Shown one piece after another: positions 4,269 to 11,186 of a stretch of DNA of 50,688 nucleotides; position 1 is the stretch's first letter; every line of letters starts with the position of its first letter. Made by a program: the position numbers and the translations under genes. The DNA lies in NCBI GenBank assembly GCA_009702455.1, contig WLIA01000006.1, positions 1 to 50,688 of the forward strand. The letters are read 5' to 3'. Origin of the DNA: Actinomycetota bacterium. GTDB taxonomy: Bacteria > Actinomycetota > Actinomycetes > Actinomycetales > Microbacteriaceae. Below the pieces are notes generated by a model. It was given only the letters and a program-made list of their open reading frames with translations, was not told the DNA's origin and made no database searches.

Positions 4269-4636
4269 GGGGATGATCGGTTTCGACATTGCATTAGTGA
4301 ATGGAAGAAGCGGGTCGAGAATGTAGCGTCAACTCGTTAATGTCCGCTGCAAACTATAGGTGCCAAATCAAACCGCACCGACTTTGCCCTAGCTGCATAA
4401 GCTAGCCCAAAGTCCGTCAGCCTAAATCTGATTTCGTTTTAGAGTCTGGCGTCATTTAGAAATCTCGCTGAGTGTCTATGTCGTAGGGGCGCTCGGGACT
4501 TTAACTATGGCTGGGCCTGTCGGATATGTCGCTTCAAGCTAGCGCCGGGGCCGAGTAGAACCTTATTGAAGATACACCCGTAGAAGTGCCGTGATCATTG
4601 CATTGGACGGGGGTTCAATTCCCCCCATCTCCACCA
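4269..4636 (+). ncRNA. ssrA: Transfer-messenger RNA (tmRNA)
   Basis: The 5' end GGGGATGATCGGTTTCGAC and the 3' end CATCTCCACCA form the tRNA-like acceptor stem (GGGGAUG pairs with CAUCUCC, one G-U), and the T arm GGGGG-TTCAATT-CCCCC precedes it. The CCA is encoded. The internal reading frame starts at the alanine codon GCC at 4362 and encodes the degradation tag AKSNRTDFALAA before a TAA at 4398-4400; the ending FALAA/YALAA is standard. tmRNA with SmpB rescues ribosomes stalled on broken messages and tags the nascent chain for proteolysis. The total length of about 368 bases is normal. Ends are set from the acceptor-stem pairing. Confidence 0.97.
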
Positions 4637-5360: not shown

Positions 5361-6125
5361 CTAGCCCTCGAAACCGCCGCGGTTAGCCGCTCTCCTGAGA
5401 GACGTTAGCAACGCGGGTGCCGCAATCAGAATCAGCGCGCAAGTCGTGATTGCGCGACCGGCATCCCAGAGCAAACCACCCGTGGCAATCTCGTAGTTCA
5501 AGAAGCGCAGCAGGTTTGCACCCAGCCCAGCGCCGGCTTCATAAGACACCGATGAGTCTGCGCCTGCTAAGAACGGCCAGTTCCACAGCGTCATTAGTGC
5601 GCCATAGACGAAACTCGCCAAGACCGCGTAAACGCAAAGTGTGAGCAACTGCGCGAACTTGCCTTTGAATCTCGGAAGAGCTCCGGCGCCGATTCCCACG
5701 AGACCAGCGGCCATCATTTGAAACGGCAGCCAAGGGCCGACGCCCGCACCGAGTAGTGCCGAAACTAAAATCGATGCGCTGCCGAGAATGAATCCGAATC
5801 CGCTTCTAAAGATGTATGCGCCGATGATGATGAGAAAGAATGCGGTTTCGATTCCGGCGGTGCCTGCACCGAGCAGGCGAATCACCGCGTTTATTGCAGT
5901 CATGACTCCGAGAATGGCGAGTTGGCGCGAACCGATTTCACCCGTTGAAAATTCGACCAACACTATTGCAATAATCAGCGGCATCAGCGCCATGAATACT
6001 GCCTGAGCCAAAAGATTCTCGTTTTGGCTATCGGTTGCAATCAGCAGTGGCCAGGCAAACATCAAAATCGAAGCAAGTGCGGCTACGGCAATTGAAACCT
6101 TCGAGAGAAGCGGTTGCTTATTCAT
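5361..6125 (-). CDS. ECF transporter S component (probable cobalamin-specific subunit)
   Basis: A 254-residue, strongly hydrophobic protein with about six membrane helices and small-residue-rich helices typical of energy-coupling-factor S components. It contains TAGIETAFFLIIIGAY and GVGPWLPFQMMAAG, segments I associate with the CbrT-like S components of actinobacteria. In ECF transporters the S component binds the vitamin and topples in the membrane when the EcfA-EcfT module hydrolyses ATP. The start overlaps the end of the fused ecfA gene by eight bases, and it is the last gene of the operon behind the cobalamin riboswitch, so vitamin B12 or a precursor is the likely substrate. The specificity is inferred from context, not from binding residues. 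Confidence 0.85.
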   Translation of the reverse strand: MNKQPLLSKVSIAVAALASILMFAWPLLIATDSQNENLLAQAVFMALMPLIIAIVLVEFSTGEIGSRQLAILGVMTAINAVIRLLGAGTAGIETAFFLIIIGAYIFRSGFGFILGSASILVSALLGAGVGPWLPFQMMAAGLVGIGAGALPRFKGKFAQLLTLCVYAVLASFVYGALMTLWNWPFLAGADSSVSYEAGAGLGANLLRFLNYEIATGGLLWDAGRAITTCALILIAAPALLTSLRRAANRGGFEG

Positions 6126-7710
6126 TAGTCACCACCTGCTGCAAAGCAATCACGCCAGGCAGTTTTGTGATTTGCGCAACCTGGCTGGCAAGCGAATTGT
6201 CGGCACGGTATTCAAGAGCAGTTTCAACCGGCTGATCGGCAATAACTTTTCCAGCTTCTAGTTGAATCACGCGGTCGGCTGACTGGGCGATGAACTCAAC
6301 ATCGTGAGAGGCGAAAATCACTGCTTTGCCTGACGAGGCAAGGTTTCGCAAAACCTGGGCAACTTGCTTTTTGGCTGCATAGTCGAGGCCGCGAGTTGGT
6401 TCATCCAAGATAACTAGGCTCGCATTCTTGACCAGCTGCATGGCAAGAACAAGCGCGAGCTGCTGACCGCTGCTCAAATCTCTCGGATGAATCGAGGGGT
6501 CAATTCGACCGCTGAACTGCTCGAACAACTGACTCGTTGAGGCCGACTTTGCTTCTGCAACCTCGTCGGCCTCATCGAGTTCATCGCCCAGATTTGGCAA
6601 AAAGAGCAGATCGGCGGCCTGCTGCGGCACCATCGCCACAACCGAAAGTCGCTCGGTTGCCGTGAGTGTTGCGGGGTCCTGCCCGGCCACTGAAATTCTG
6701 CCATCGCCTCGGTTTCCGGTGCCCTGAAGCGCCCAGAGCAGCGAAGTCTTGCCCGAGCCGTTTTCGCCCATGACCGCAATGACCTCACCGGCCTTTGCCG
6801 AAAGAGAAACCGAATCGACGGCTCGAAGAGAGCCGTAATCAACGGTCACTCGCTCGGCGTTTAGAACCTCAGAACCGAGCGGCAGGTGAGCGATGCGCTT
6901 TGTGGTGTGCGGGGCAGAACGCGCGAACTCTTCAGCTGCATGCTCGATGCTGAGCAAAACCTTCGGCCAGGCCAGCTGGTGTGCCAGCTCGATCAGCGGC
7001 GGCACAAATTTGAATTTGGCTAGCTGAGTTTGCGGTTCACCCTGTGAAACTGTGCCGTCATTGTTCACGATGATCACAGAGTCAACCAGGCCGACCAGGC
7101 GTTCGATTCGATGTTCGGCAACAATCACGGTTATGCCCTCTGATCGACTTAGCCTCCAGACAAATTCGAGAAGTTCTTTTGCAGCCAATGGGTCTAGAGC
7201 TGAAGTCGGTTCGTCTAGCACCAGAATCTTTTGCCCAGCGCTGAGAGCTGCCGCGATTGCCACTCGTTGCTGCTGACCGCCCGAAAGCTCGAACAGTTTT
7301 CGATTGCGCAACTCGCTGAGACCGGTTGCGGCAAGTGCTGCATCAACACGTCGAATCATTTCGTCGCGACCGATGGCTAGTTGCTCGAGGGCAAAGGCCA
7401 ACTCTTCGAGCACAGTGTCTGCAACGAATGCACCTTCGGGCTGCTGATTCACATAACCGATCAGGTGGGCGGTCTCGTGAGGCATTGCTCGACTGAAATC
7501 TTGACCATCAATTGTGCGAACCCCACTTGCCGTTCCACCGCTGAAGTGAGGCACCAGCCCAACGAGTGCCTTGAGCAATGTTGACTTGCCGCTGCCAGTT
7601 GCTCCGCAAACCAGAACGAATTGGCCGGCTTTTATATCAACGCTCGCTCGATTTAGTTTGGCTTCATCGCCATTCTTGTAGGTGAAGGTGAAATTCTTGA
7701 GGCTTATCAA
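6118..7710 (-). CDS. Fused ECF transporter ATPase (two ABC domains, EcfA-EcfA')
   Basis: A 530-residue protein with two complete ABC ATPase domains. The N-terminal domain has Walker A GATGSGKST (residues 36-44), signature LSGGQQQRVAIAAAL and Walker B ILVLDEPTSALD. The C-terminal domain has GENGSGKTS, signature LSSGQQLALVLAMQL and LVILDEPTRGLD. Group-specific ECF transporters use two ATPases, and here both come from one gene. The TTG at 7710 is chosen because its four-base overlap with the ecfT stop (TTGA) signals coupling and because the ABC domain begins immediately (ISLKNFTFTY); longer frames add an unrelated 16-residue head inside ecfT. The protein powers the adjacent EcfT/S-component pair. 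Confidence 0.92.
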   Translation of the reverse strand: MISLKNFTFTYKNGDEAKLNRASVDIKAGQFVLVCGATGSGKSTLLKALVGLVPHFSGGTASGVRTIDGQDFSRAMPHETAHLIGYVNQQPEGAFVADTVLEELAFALEQLAIGRDEMIRRVDAALAATGLSELRNRKLFELSGGQQQRVAIAAALSAGQKILVLDEPTSALDPLAAKELLEFVWRLSRSEGITVIVAEHRIERLVGLVDSVIIVNNDGTVSQGEPQTQLAKFKFVPPLIELAHQLAWPKVLLSIEHAAEEFARSAPHTTKRIAHLPLGSEVLNAERVTVDYGSLRAVDSVSLSAKAGEVIAVMGENGSGKTSLLWALQGTGNRGDGRISVAGQDPATLTATERLSVVAMVPQQAADLLFLPNLGDELDEADEVAEAKSASTSQLFEQFSGRIDPSIHPRDLSSGQQLALVLAMQLVKNASLVILDEPTRGLDYAAKKQVAQVLRNLASSGKAVIFASHDVEFIAQSADRVIQLEAGKVIADQPVETALEYRADNSLASQVAQITKLPGVIALQQVVTNE

Positions 7711-8663
7711 ACCGGCATCACCGCCCAGGCAAAGTGAACAATCAGAAGAACACTGCATGCTGCGATCACCGCAAAATCGATAGGCGTGCGAGCGGTTCTG
7801 GCGATGCTGGTTCGCGAATTTCTTCGAGACGTGAGTCGTACGCTAATCACCGAGGTGACGGCACCAATCGCCAAAAGTGTCATTGCGGCTGGTGCAGAGA
7901 ATCCGCTCAGAAGCACGAACACTCCCATGGTTATTGCGAGCAGAGACTGCAACCCGAGCACGCGTGCTAGCAAGAGTTCGCCCTTGCTCTGAGTCGACTT
8001 GCGACCAAAACCGCGCGCATCCATGCTGGCTGCCAACAGCAGTGATCGATCAAGGGTGTCTTCGAGCACCGGAATCAACAGGCCGTTGAGCGTAGACGAT
8101 TTGCGACCCTTGCCACGCAGCCCTCGCGCTCTTCTAACGCGGGCAAAGCTCTCGATTAATTGCGGTGCCAGGTTGATTGCCACCGAAACGCTCGTTGCTA
8201 TTTCATAGAGTGCGCCGGGCGCAGACTTCAAAAGTTTGCGCGGATTCGCGAGGGTGTTTGCTACGGCGATGGCCAAAATGATTGCGGCCAAGCGACTTCC
8301 GTCTAGCAATGCGCCCAACATGGCTGGCGCTGAGACATTGCCGAGAAGGCCGATTGCGCCAAGACCAAAGTCGAGTTCGAAGCGTGGCAATTCAAGCAAA
8401 ATGTCATCGGTCTCTTGGCTGAACGAAAAGACGATTCGAAACACAACGCGAATCACAACTACTGCGAGCGCAAGAATCAAATAGAACTTGAGCGATCTCG
8501 CCCAAGGCGCGTTCTCACGAAAGACAAGAATCAACAGCACCGAAAGCGCTGCAACCGAGAGGGTCTGCACGATGCTGGTAGCCGAGCCTGCAATCACGGC
8601 GAGCGCAAGCGAGATCACCCACCAGGTTGATGGGTGAATCTTGCTTGCAAGTTTCTGGATCAT
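7707..8663 (-). CDS. ECF transporter transmembrane coupling subunit EcfT
   Basis: A 318-residue membrane protein with about five or six hydrophobic helices. It has the two EcfT coupling motifs: RARGLRG and DARGFGR, the Ala-Arg-Gly helices that dock into the two ATPases. The ATG at 8663 is preferred; longer in-frame starts would overlap the upstream beta-domain gene and add non-conserved sequence. EcfT transmits ATP-driven motion to the S component. The gene follows the upstream stop by 13 bases and overlaps the fused ATPase by four. Since all subunits lie behind one riboswitch, this is a dedicated (group I) transporter rather than a shared module. Confidence 0.9.
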   Translation of the reverse strand: MIQKLASKIHPSTWWVISLALAVIAGSATSIVQTLSVAALSVLLILVFRENAPWARSLKFYLILALAVVVIRVVFRIVFSFSQETDDILLELPRFELDFGLGAIGLLGNVSAPAMLGALLDGSRLAAIILAIAVANTLANPRKLLKSAPGALYEIATSVSVAINLAPQLIESFARVRRARGLRGKGRKSSTLNGLLIPVLEDTLDRSLLLAASMDARGFGRKSTQSKGELLLARVLGLQSLLAITMGVFVLLSGFSAPAAMTLLAIGAVTSVISVRLTSRRNSRTSIARTARTPIDFAVIAACSVLLIVHFAWAVMPV

Positions 8664-8676
8664 CGATTCTCGAACA

Positions 8677-9213
8677 TCAGTTGCACACAAACGAAGACGG
8701 CTCAACGCGCGGCATACTCTGCAACACGTTTTCGCCAGGTTCAACAAAGCGCCAGGCATCGACTGCGCCGCATTGCGGTTTTCTCATCGCTGCGCCGGCT
8801 CCGCTGTATTGCCACTCTTGGCTGCCAGCATCGGCAATGAAGTATGCCCACGAACCCTGTGCGGCAGTTGGTGTTTTGGTGCAGGGCTGAACCTCGGCGG
8901 TCGGCCAGCCGTCAAGCCTGCAAACGAAACCCGTCGGATATTCGCTCGTGCCCTGAGCCGAAACAGCTGCGGCAGCAAACAGGTCCCATCCGGTTGATTC
9001 GAATTCGGTCACGCAGAGTTCTTTGACTTCTCTATTGCTGGATGTGCCGAAATCAATAACAAGAGAAACGCCGGCACCAGATTCGCACTGACCGCTGCGA
9101 ACGCTCTCGGCCAGGAGGGTTGCCTTGGGCTCGCTAGGAATGGTGCTGATGAACCCGCCGATGGCCACAAAGACCACCAGCGCAATCAGCACCATTCGAA
9201 GCGAGATTCTCAT
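8677..9213 (-). CDS. Exported protein with transcobalamin beta-domain-like (DUF4430-type) fold
   Basis: A 178-residue protein beginning with a hydrophobic signal or anchor segment (about residues 7-25) and carrying six cysteines afterwards, as expected outside the membrane. The C-terminal half has the pattern GSWAYFIADAG, EWQYSGAGA and AWRFVEPGE. The spacing of W-x-Y, W-x-Y-S-x-x-G-A and W-x-F resembles the beta domain at the C-terminus of transcobalamin/intrinsic factor and of DUF4430 proteins. In animal cobalamin carriers that domain closes over the corrin ring. It is four bases downstream of the alpha-domain-like gene and just before ecfT in the riboswitch-controlled operon. I infer that it helps capture cobalamin at the surface, perhaps membrane anchored by its N-terminal helix since no lipobox is present. 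Confidence 0.7.
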   Translation of the reverse strand: MRISLRMVLIALVVFVAIGGFISTIPSEPKATLLAESVRSGQCESGAGVSLVIDFGTSSNREVKELCVTEFESTGWDLFAAAAVSAQGTSEYPTGFVCRLDGWPTAEVQPCTKTPTAAQGSWAYFIADAGSQEWQYSGAGAAMRKPQCGAVDAWRFVEPGENVLQSMPRVEPSSFVCN

Positions 9214-9217
9214 GCGA

Positions 9218-10174
9218 CTACTTGATTAGCGAAACGTAGCTCGAGCCGAGCAGTGCGAGGTATCCCTGCGCCGAAGCGAAGATGTCTGCTTTGCCACCCG
9301 AGTAGGCCGAGATCAAGCCGCCGGTTGGTGCCACTCGCGAGATCATCCATTTCTGAATCGCAGAGTTCTTCTGCCCGATTGCCGACAGACCCATTGCCGC
9401 GTATGCCGTGCCGTTCACATCGACTTCACCCCAGGCCACAAAGTGGTCGGTGACCATAGCGGTTTTGGTTAGCCAGTTAGCTGCCTTGGTGGTGACAGCG
9501 GCTTTACTTCTATTTGCAGAGGCGAACGCCATGAGTGCCATGCCGGTTGCATCGGCGCTGCTAGTCATAGTGTCGGCGGTCAAATCGGTGCCGAAGCCAC
9601 CATCGGTTCTGGCCAGAGTGGCCAACTTTGTGGCAACCAAACCTGCAAGCTTGGTTTCGCCCGAGGCTGTTAGGCCAAGAATCGTCCAGCCATAGATAAA
9701 GGTGTTGCCGTTGGCATCGGCGATCTCGCCTGACTTGTTTACCGAGGCCTTTACAGAGTTGAGCACCGAGGTGCGCAGGCTCGACTTTGGCAGAGCAAAT
9801 GCTTTGCTGGCAACCAAGAACATTCCGCCTCGGCCAGTCTGAAACTTCTGGTCAACAAATAGGCTGCCAACTTTGGTGCTGATGCCAGCGTTTGCCGCTG
9901 AGCGCAGGTTGAAGTCGACCGCCGGCTTGAAGCTTTTGGCTGTTTGCCCGGCTGCCCTTAGCTGAAGCAAAGACTCGATTGTGAAACCGAAGTCTGGCCG
10001 GCCGGGGGTGAAGCCCTCTACATACTTTTTGTCTACAAACTTGCTCGCGATAAAGCGAACTGTGTTTGCCTGTTTCACATCTGCCGAAGCCGGCAAAATG
10101 CTGGTCGACAGGGCGACCGCTGTGATGGTGATTAGTGTTGCGATTGTGCGCAACCCAGTTTTAGTTTCAAACAT
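9218..10174 (-). CDS. Secreted alpha/alpha-barrel protein resembling the transcobalamin alpha domain
   Basis: A 318-residue protein with a signal peptide (residues 1-31, likely cleavage after PASA) and no lipobox cysteine. The mature part consists of helical repeats ending in small-residue patterns such as FIYGWTILGLTASGE, DGGFGTD (191-197), ADATGMALMAFASA, AYAAMGLSAIG and SAQGYLALLG, the style of alpha6/alpha6 barrels of the prenyltransferase/squalene-cyclase and transcobalamin/intrinsic-factor families. It lacks cyclase catalytic acid motifs. It is the first gene after the cobalamin riboswitch, with AAAGG six bases before the ATG. Together with the neighbouring beta-domain protein it looks like a two-chain transcobalamin that could pass B12 to the ECF transporter. 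Function is inferred from fold resemblance and context. Confidence 0.72.
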   Translation of the reverse strand: MFETKTGLRTIATLITITAVALSTSILPASADVKQANTVRFIASKFVDKKYVEGFTPGRPDFGFTIESLLQLRAAGQTAKSFKPAVDFNLRSAANAGISTKVGSLFVDQKFQTGRGGMFLVASKAFALPKSSLRTSVLNSVKASVNKSGEIADANGNTFIYGWTILGLTASGETKLAGLVATKLATLARTDGGFGTDLTADTMTSSADATGMALMAFASANRSKAAVTTKAANWLTKTAMVTDHFVAWGEVDVNGTAYAAMGLSAIGQKNSAIQKWMISRVAPTGGLISAYSGGKADIFASAQGYLALLGSSYVSLIK

Positions 10175-10180
10175 TTGAAA

Positions 10181-10212
10181 CCTTTCGCGTTAGCGAGAAC
10201 TGAGCGCGAAGG
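10181..10212 (-). promoter_or_regulatory. SD-sequestering hairpin (riboswitch expression platform)
   Basis: On the minus strand CCTTCGCG (10212-10205) can pair with CGCGAAAGG (10189-10181), which contains the Shine-Dalgarno site of the first operon gene, with one bulged base. A strong upstream hairpin (CGAAC-A-GCCC-loop-GGGCGTTCG, about 10214-10237) could compete. This suggests translational control by the aptamer. Confidence 0.6.
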
Positions 10213-10274
10213 CGAACGCCCGAATAGGGCTGTTCGACTCCACCCGTATTCCTCGACGGTTTTTTGGAGTCTTC

Positions 10275-10390
10275 GTTTTTGCTCAGGCATTCCGACTTAT
10301 CTATAACGACTTACGTCGATCAAGACTTACGGCTGCGGGTCAGCACCGGATTCACACCGGTTTCCCCTGAGGTCAAACTAGAACTACAGC
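10275..10390 (-). promoter_or_regulatory. Cobalamin (adenosylcobalamin-type) riboswitch aptamer
   Basis: Read on the minus strand, 10367-10326 gives GGGGAAACCGGTGTGAAT followed by CCGGTGCTGACCCGCAGC, matching the conserved cobalamin aptamer core (GGGAA-x-CCGGTG-x-x-AATCCGG-x-x-C-x-GACCCGC). The B12-box-like AAGTCGGAATGCCTGAGC follows at 10298-10281 at the expected distance. Aptamer ends are approximate. It lies 101 bases before the start codon of the first gene of the transcobalamin-like/ECF operon, so high cobalamin should repress uptake. Confidence 0.9.
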
Positions 10391-10430
10391 GTTTGCTGTT
10401 CGCCCAATCTAGCAGAGAGCGGGTGCGACT

Positions 10431-11186
10431 TTAGAAGATGCCGCCAAGACTCGCCAATTGTTTCGCCAAAAGCGCGTAGCCCACGAAGCTCACGGCATCC
10501 AAGAAGAAGTGGGCGAGAATGAGGGGTATTACCCGACCCCACTTGCGGTAAGCCCAGCCAAAGATCAGACCCATAACAAAGTTGCCGACAATGCCAGCAA
10601 AGCCCTGGTATGAGTGGTACAGAGCACGAATCGTTGAGCTGATGAGTTGCTGGTGCACGAACTTCAGACCCAATTGGTCGAACCTCTTATATAGGTAAGC
10701 CACCATGATCACTTCTTCTTGGATGGCGGCTCGCACTGCCGAGAGCAACAGCATCGGCAGCGTCCACCAGTAGCCCGACAAATCGGCCGGCACAACCTGA
10801 GCCGCGAGCCCAAGGGCTCGCGCGCTGGCGTAAAGCGCAAGACCGGGTATGCCAATCACGGCCGCAAGCGCTAGTCCGCGAAGCAGATCTCTGCTGCGAG
10901 AAATTGGCCAGATGCCGATTTCGTCGAAGGCTTTTTCACTGTCGCGGCGCAGCAGATAGAGAACCAAAATTGCTGGAGCAACCGCAAAGAGAATTCCAAT
11001 TAGCTGGTAACTGAAGTCGAAGAACTCGGCTCGCGCTTTCGATGGGTTTAGGTCTGTTCGGGTGCCACCGATGCCCATCGGCGAAAGTAGAGTTTCGGCA
11101 AACCTGAGTAGCGAATAAACGGCAGAGGTGCCGAGGCTCAGCAGCAGAACTAAACCGATTTCGAATCGAATAAAGTTTTTTGACAT
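10431..11186 (-). CDS. CPBP-family intramembrane glutamic endopeptidase-like protein
   Basis: A 251-residue membrane protein with about six to seven helices. The three conserved CPBP/Abi motifs are present: a double glutamate in QEEVIMVAYLYKR, the histidine of RALYHSYQG, and HFFLD near the C-terminus. These residues form the metal-binding catalytic site in relatives such as Rce1 and bacterial CAAX-protease-like proteins. Its substrate is unknown; bacterial members are linked to bacteriocin immunity, exopeptide processing or membrane protein maturation. The ATG overlaps the upstream lysE-like stop by one base (TGATG), so it is translated from the DCC-LysE-CPBP message. It ends about 40 bases before the riboswitch of the next operon. 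Confidence 0.85.
   Translation of the reverse strand: MSKNFIRFEIGLVLLLSLGTSAVYSLLRFAETLLSPMGIGGTRTDLNPSKARAEFFDFSYQLIGILFAVAPAILVLYLLRRDSEKAFDEIGIWPISRSRDLLRGLALAAVIGIPGLALYASARALGLAAQVVPADLSGYWWTLPMLLLSAVRAAIQEEVIMVAYLYKRFDQLGLKFVHQQLISSTIRALYHSYQGFAGIVGNFVMGLIFGWAYRKWGRVIPLILAHFFLDAVSFVGYALLAKQLASLGGIF

Follow-up and report, generated by a model that had tools for sequence, protein, structure and literature searches.

The window analysed here is a stretch of 50,688 nucleotides (nt) from a member of the Actinomycetota, family Microbacteriaceae (GenBank assembly GCA_009702455.1, contig WLIA01000006.1), and it carries on its minus strand a cobalamin riboswitch followed by five co-directional genes. 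In minus-strand order these encode P1, an exported protein of 318 residues predicted to be an α/α toroid (9218..10174); P2, 178 residues, whose model resembles the β domain of transcobalamin (8677..9213); the transmembrane coupling protein EcfT (7707..8663); a fused double EcfA ATPase (6118..7710); and an S component of 254 residues (5361..6125), the last three being parts of an energy-coupling factor (ECF) transporter. The genome belongs to a genus of small-genome Microbacteriaceae, and the related loci are labelled Rhodoluna sp. and Microbacteriaceae bacterium. A preliminary description of the sequence had read the region as a riboswitch-controlled vitamin B12 uptake operon with a capture system of two separate chains, and its account of the riboswitch and of the five genes was borne out.

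Riboswitch, transporter genes and B12 use

The riboswitch aptamer (RF00174, 10265..10395, minus strand) scored 39.7 bits in cmscan against a gathering threshold of 31.5 (E 1.2e-06) and spans model positions 1–189, so that it is a full-length member of its family. It is the sole cobalamin riboswitch in the genome, the assembly of which is 85% complete. The aptamer core was found within two edits in 42/42 P2-positive loci of the genus, as compared to 2 of 1050 dinucleotide shuffles; the 42 are all P2-bearing loci of these Rhodoluna-like Microbacteriaceae that have enough upstream sequence. An Rfam scan of 20 loci at its own threshold gave cobalamin-clan riboswitches in most of the P2-carrying ones. 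Among 39 examined P2-bearing genomes of Actinomycetes, 34 had a cobalamin riboswitch, and it lay directly upstream of the P2 gene in 33 of these, the contig ending at this point in the remaining one.

The 3' end of the aptamer overlaps a hairpin (10236..10271, minus strand), seen in the centroid fold and with its arms GACUCC and GGAGUC present in the sequence, which is likely to be part of the expression platform. A recurring GTG-GAG-TC downstream of an AGGA-like site had suggested a conserved leader peptide after the riboswitch, but this was rejected, since no reading frame is conserved across the loci and the recurring letters belong to one arm of the hairpin. Two loci have more than one cobalamin riboswitch per P1/P2 cluster (L136, around 7500–8900, and L142, where one lies between P2 and EcfT), and in two others a glycine riboswitch is found on the opposite strand just upstream of the cobalamin riboswitch of the operon (L054:1130-1217, minus strand; L055:7178-7265, plus strand).

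The five genes are separated by gaps of 4–13 nt or overlap slightly, after correction of two starts. The listed starts of EcfT (ATG at 8759) and EcfA are probably too long, because they overlap the preceding genes, P2 in the case of EcfT; the open reading frames (ORFs) are open from 8759 and 7758, and judged from the sequence 8663 and a TTG at 7710 are the better fitting starts. EcfT matches PF02361 (CbiQ; 2.7e-08, 34.2 bits against a cut-off of 25), and the double EcfA has two PF00005 stretches, with ECF ATPase models as its best NCBIfam matches at scores under their cut-offs. The S component of the window has no Pfam match itself, and its family was assigned from its relatives, 13 of 23 of which match PF12822 (ECF S component, best 2.8e-12). 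With EcfT, the EcfA ATPases and S encoded together, the genes thus make up an ECF transporter, as had been claimed. The further label "CbrT-like" for the S component found no support at the level of sequence: its profile matched no sequence of a solved structure up to E 10, that of CbrT (6FNP) included.

To relate the operon to the use of the vitamin, we took the S component, which is present in 47 of the 67 genus genomes, as the mark of the operon, and MetH (methionine synthase, PF02310) or the class II ribonucleotide reductase NrdJ above the TIGR02504 cut-off as the mark of a B12-dependent enzyme. In the genus genomes that reach 90% completeness, operon and enzyme occurred together in 19; none had the operon without an enzyme, two had an enzyme only and four had neither. 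Every operon-bearing genome of this completeness that lacks MetH has a class II NrdJ, and the window genome carries both enzymes. In four operon-less genomes (G150, G151, G153 and G201) there was for NrdJ just a class I-like match under the cut-off. CobS was found in none of the 67 genus genomes, whereas the same search was positive in 10 of 14 control genomes, and complete cobamides must therefore be obtained from the surroundings. Beyond the genus, five genomes (G078, G414, G079, G142 and G215) have P2-ECF genes with no detectable cobalamin riboswitch, and their sole PF02310 match, in an ORF of the size of MetH, lies within about 7 kb of these genes. The riboswitch, the ECF genes, the co-occurrence with B12 enzymes and the absence of CobS all point in the same direction, and we regard it as almost certain that the operon serves B12 uptake.

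The two exported proteins

P2 has a hydrophobic, membrane-anchor-like N-terminus and four cysteines that are invariant in 36 genus sequences. The pattern W-x-Y / W-x-Y-S-x-x-G-A / W-x-F, which had led to the comparison with transcobalamin, proved to be real and conserved: W122, W134, G140 and W154 are invariant in 36 genus sequences, and all of these but W154 are likewise invariant in a wider set of 48. The AlphaFold2 model, made from an alignment of 48 relatives, has a mean predicted local distance difference test score (pLDDT) of 93.9 and a predicted template modelling score (pTM) of 0.88. Its first 14 Foldseek matches were to the animal carriers transcobalamin, haptocorrin and intrinsic factor and to the Ruminococcus protein 3u7z, with modest E-values of 0.006 to 0.4 and a probability near 1 for the first 12. 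In VIA-align 15 chains of these kinds had Z-scores of 10.3–9.6, as compared to 5.3 for the next family. Residues 1–133 of the model cover the whole β domain, and 103 residues were aligned with residues 307–414 of 2bb6 (Z 10.3, root-mean-square deviation 3.9). The model has short strands at 60–61, 73–74 and 77, following a helix at 49–55, which is where they would be expected. As far as the model goes, the kinship of P2 with the transcobalamin-type carriers is specific at the level of the fold, which upholds the proposed resemblance to the β domain, and it is very probable that P2 binds a cobamide.

The sequence searches gave less. The P2 profile had no match among solved structures, and single P1 and P2 sequences gave nothing useful against the same structures. 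The window P2 scored 31.7 bits against the NCBIfam model SCO2322_fam (NF040672), where the cut-off of 85 was not reached, and 30 of the 36 P2 proteins from the genus gave weak matches to the model (best 7.3e-09). P2 thus appears as a distant relative of this family, the model of which names no function.

P1 of the window has a signal peptide of the signal-peptidase-I type. With a simple motif, 29 of 46 relatives in the genus were assigned to this type and 17 to the lipoproteins, and the forms of export vary between secreted, lipoprotein and LAxTG-anchored. The AlphaFold2 model (pLDDT 96.2, pTM 0.93, 50 relatives in the alignment) has the fold of an α/α toroid. Transcobalamin was among its Foldseek matches (E 4e-4, TM 0.62); it was not among the best 50 VIA matches, which is an absence and not counter-evidence. 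The Pfam family Cobalamin_bind (PF01122) had no match in the window P1, and in 3–4 relatives the best E was 0.002. The modelled kinship of P1 with the transcobalamin α domain is thus at the level of the general fold, and the equation of P1 with that domain stood only so far, with terpene cyclases matching the model better.

Distribution and pairing of P1 and P2

P1 was found in 50 of the 67 genus genomes, and a single P1 query found none outside the genus in a sample of 150 genomes of the family. The P2 profile detected relatives of P2 in 89 genomes out of a sample of 247 Actinomycetes. Scanning with the S component extended the set by 80 loci, which come from Rhodoluna, Amycolatopsis, Streptomyces, Actinomadura and Nocardioides, among others. 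P2 adjoins EcfT-EcfA-S in nearly all of these where the contig allows it to be seen, and P1 is present in most, either upstream or after S. In Actinomadura hibisca P2 and P1 are naturally fused into a protein of 519 residues (L208:9789-11345, minus strand), behind a leader that looks like a B12 riboswitch by eye and is under the Rfam threshold. Amycolatopsis and others have tandem P1-P1 ORFs beside two P2 genes. In Streptomyces the order is P2, EcfT, the double EcfA, S, P1 and a secreted DUF4430 protein, which closes the operon just after P1 (L131:13610-14137, L203:11360-11842, L210:11401-11895), and P1 ends in a LAxTG-like cell-wall anchor. The fusion, the tandem ORFs and the Streptomyces operons support the pairing of P1 with P2.

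In other loci P1 is absent while P2 and the ECF genes are kept, namely in the Rhodoluna-like loci L229–L231 and in L109, L110, L112, L122 and L145 from Microbacteriaceae and related bacteria. L229 is a compact variant (8408-11021, minus strand) with a lipoprotein P2, EcfT-EcfA-EcfA' in a single ORF of 516 residues, a short S and no P1, and L230, L231 and L232 resemble it in layout; L229 keeps an AdoCbl-II (adenosylcobalamin) riboswitch in spite of the missing P1. The two P1-less groups sit apart in the S-component tree, and P1 has therefore probably been lost at least twice. Since at least two lineages keep P2 and the transporter without P1, an obligatory two-chain clamp is excluded. The two-chain capture of the preliminary description is partly supported: the joint wrapping of cobalamin and its transfer to S are proposals, and capture cannot depend strictly on both chains. 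The genomes G153, G201 and G157 have P1 orphans, with neither P2 nor ECF genes nor a riboswitch. Orphans of this kind (L066:5998-6969, L072:5989-6936, L057:4931-5923) stand in genomes in which no B12-dependent enzyme was detected. The neighbours of the orphans in L066 and L072, DoxX-like and HicB-like genes, are shared with some operon loci.

Proposed cobamide import and other explanations

The best explanation of the whole is, with good probability, that the operon is a riboswitch-controlled import system for B12 (cobamide), with P1 and P2 closing on the substrate, in an actinobacterium apparently unable to make or complete the vitamin. When B12 is low the riboswitch would permit expression of the operon. 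The membrane-anchored P2 would display its transcobalamin-β-like, β-grasp domain outside the cell, P1 would be exported as an α/α toroid, and the two would most likely close on the cobamide in the way the two halves of transcobalamin do. Being anchored and constant, P2 is probably the protein that hands the cobamide to the S component, after which the EcfT/EcfA module would drive it inward, for use by MetH and the class II NrdJ. That P1 and P2 bind the cobamide together is somewhat favoured by our results, and to the same degree we lean towards P2 as the constant partner and P1 as an optional amplifier. The more detailed proposal of an ECF transporter with its own extracellular receptor, where P2 is the required donor to S and P1 its optional partner in a two-chain transcobalamin, is put forward tentatively.

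Several observations weigh against this interpretation, beginning with the loss of P1 and the P1 orphans described above. The best structural matches of P1 are the squalene-hopene and related terpene cyclases, with a Z-score of 25. No sequence link was found between P2 and Pfam DUF4430 (PF14478): none of 48 P2 proteins matched it up to E 0.1, and hhalign gave a probability of 2.6%. A PF14478 search of Actinomycetes matched 3 of 244 genomes, and the matches in the two that were checked (G302 and G444) are other genes. The association between operon and B12 enzyme has a Fisher p of 0.0012 that is uncorrected for phylogeny. Furthermore, two genus genomes more than 90% complete, G167 and G192, have MetH and no detected P1 or S, which would be accounted for by a contig absent from the assembly or by a different importer of B12.

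The P1-less lineages could also mean that P2 serves by itself as the ECF transporter's extracellular receptor or lid for B12, and that P1 has another role at the cell surface, for example in storage, in docking to the cell wall or in binding of a B12-protein complex. The different placing of the two proteins, P2 anchored in the membrane whereas P1 is secreted, a lipoprotein or LAxTG-anchored, would agree with this, and so would the orphans in genomes independent of B12. It is less easily reconciled with the riboswitch and operon that P1 and P2 have in common in nearly all genus loci, with the natural fusion and the position of P1 beside a DUF4430 protein in Streptomyces, or with the toroid being the very fold that partners this β domain in transcobalamin, and we consider a P2-only receptor unlikely, if still the strongest competitor of joint binding.

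Joint binding of a complete cobamide has further to be set against two other explanations, both of which we find very improbable. In other bacteria, genes for salvage and for precursors can likewise stand behind a cobalamin riboswitch, and the cargo could be cobinamide or another incomplete corrinoid, α-ribazole or a base. Cobinamide is also taken up by ECF-CbrT (PMC5997447). To finish cobinamide or to use α-ribazole CobS is needed, however, and it is missing throughout the genus, while the operon-bearing genomes have MetH and/or NrdJ. The least probable explanation, by a little, is that P1 is a secreted terpene cyclase or another enzyme of the α/α-toroid class, which has nothing to do with binding B12 and stands in the operon by chance. 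The structural matches to cyclases speak for it, as do Pfam SQHop matches in relatives of P1. Against it, the DxDD motif of class II terpene cyclases is absent in 41/41 genus P1 proteins (the tetrapeptide occurs in 3 of 50 wider ones), and P1 is strictly associated with the riboswitch, P2 and the ECF genes. The substrates of terpene cyclases are intracellular lipids, and P1 is exported.

The idea of such a system is not new. A transcobalamin-like clade of the SLBB β-grasp superfamily goes back to Burroughs, Iyer and Aravind (2007, PMC1796856), who described it with fusions to α/α toroids and operons with CbiO-like and CbiQ-like genes in hosts without B12 synthesis; they proposed B12 scavenging and a lateral transfer to animals as the source of animal transcobalamin, and their predictions concerned chiefly low-GC Gram-positives. 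The statement of the preliminary description that the mechanism is little studied is therefore fair for experiments, but not for the idea. The operon described here is like those systems in having an exported β-grasp domain and a toroid beside ATPase and CbiQ-type genes, and unlike them in that P1 and P2 are separate genes, the hosts are actinobacteria and P2 is unmatched by DUF4430. Riboswitch control, co-occurrence with the enzymes and loss of P1 are documented here in addition. In a literature search limited to open-licence papers the actinobacterial system was not found described, and we class the operon as a new, split actinobacterial variant of the kind predicted in 2007.

In comparison with transcobalamin, intrinsic factor and haptocorrin of animals, the P2 model spans the whole β domain and P1 shares the general toroid fold, but the bacterial chains are separate and 10–18% identical to the animal proteins, P1 is not specifically closest to the α domain, and delivery would be to an ECF transporter and not to a cell-surface receptor. 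ECF-CbrT of Lactobacillus delbrueckii (PDB 6FNP) is a proven B12 ECF transporter, and the available part of its description (PMC5997447) mentions no such extracellular proteins. The system of the window has the same EcfT, EcfA and ECF S component and, as proposed here, the same substrate, but its S has no detectable sequence similarity to CbrT, and instead of sharing an ECF module it has an operon of its own, which also encodes two extracellular proteins and in which the two ATPases are fused.

The S component alone is usually thought to capture the substrate, and an extracellular binding protein beside an ECF transporter would be contrary to this. The count of P2 in 89 of 247 genomes, as compared to 3 of 244 for DUF4430, suggests a widespread candidate B12-uptake system that is largely invisible to annotation. 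It would also be a candidate B12 route for abundant freshwater bacteria, the vitamin dependence of which is ecologically relevant. If P2 is the required donor and P1 optional, the operon may offer a bacterial working model for the origin of the animal carrier. The 2007 proposal that animal transcobalamin had a bacterial origin is brought nearer to testing. Rhodoluna lacicola, a naturally transformable member of the genus, has been grown with added B12 (PMC11577799).

Some variants and neighbours of the locus were also observed. In a genome of 1.2 Mb (G365), a short P2-like gene lies behind a cobalamin riboswitch (L116:8179-8706, plus strand), and ECF genes were not recognised within 17 kb of it. 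In three loci the whole ECF transporter is apparently one chain, with EcfT, both EcfA domains and S in a single ORF, of 1006 residues in L112 (4605-7625, minus strand) and also seen in L109 (5037-8075) and L122 (4617-7862). In the window the operon adjoins a transfer-messenger RNA (tmRNA) gene (4269-4636, plus strand), and a tmRNA gene is found near the operon in several relatives as well.

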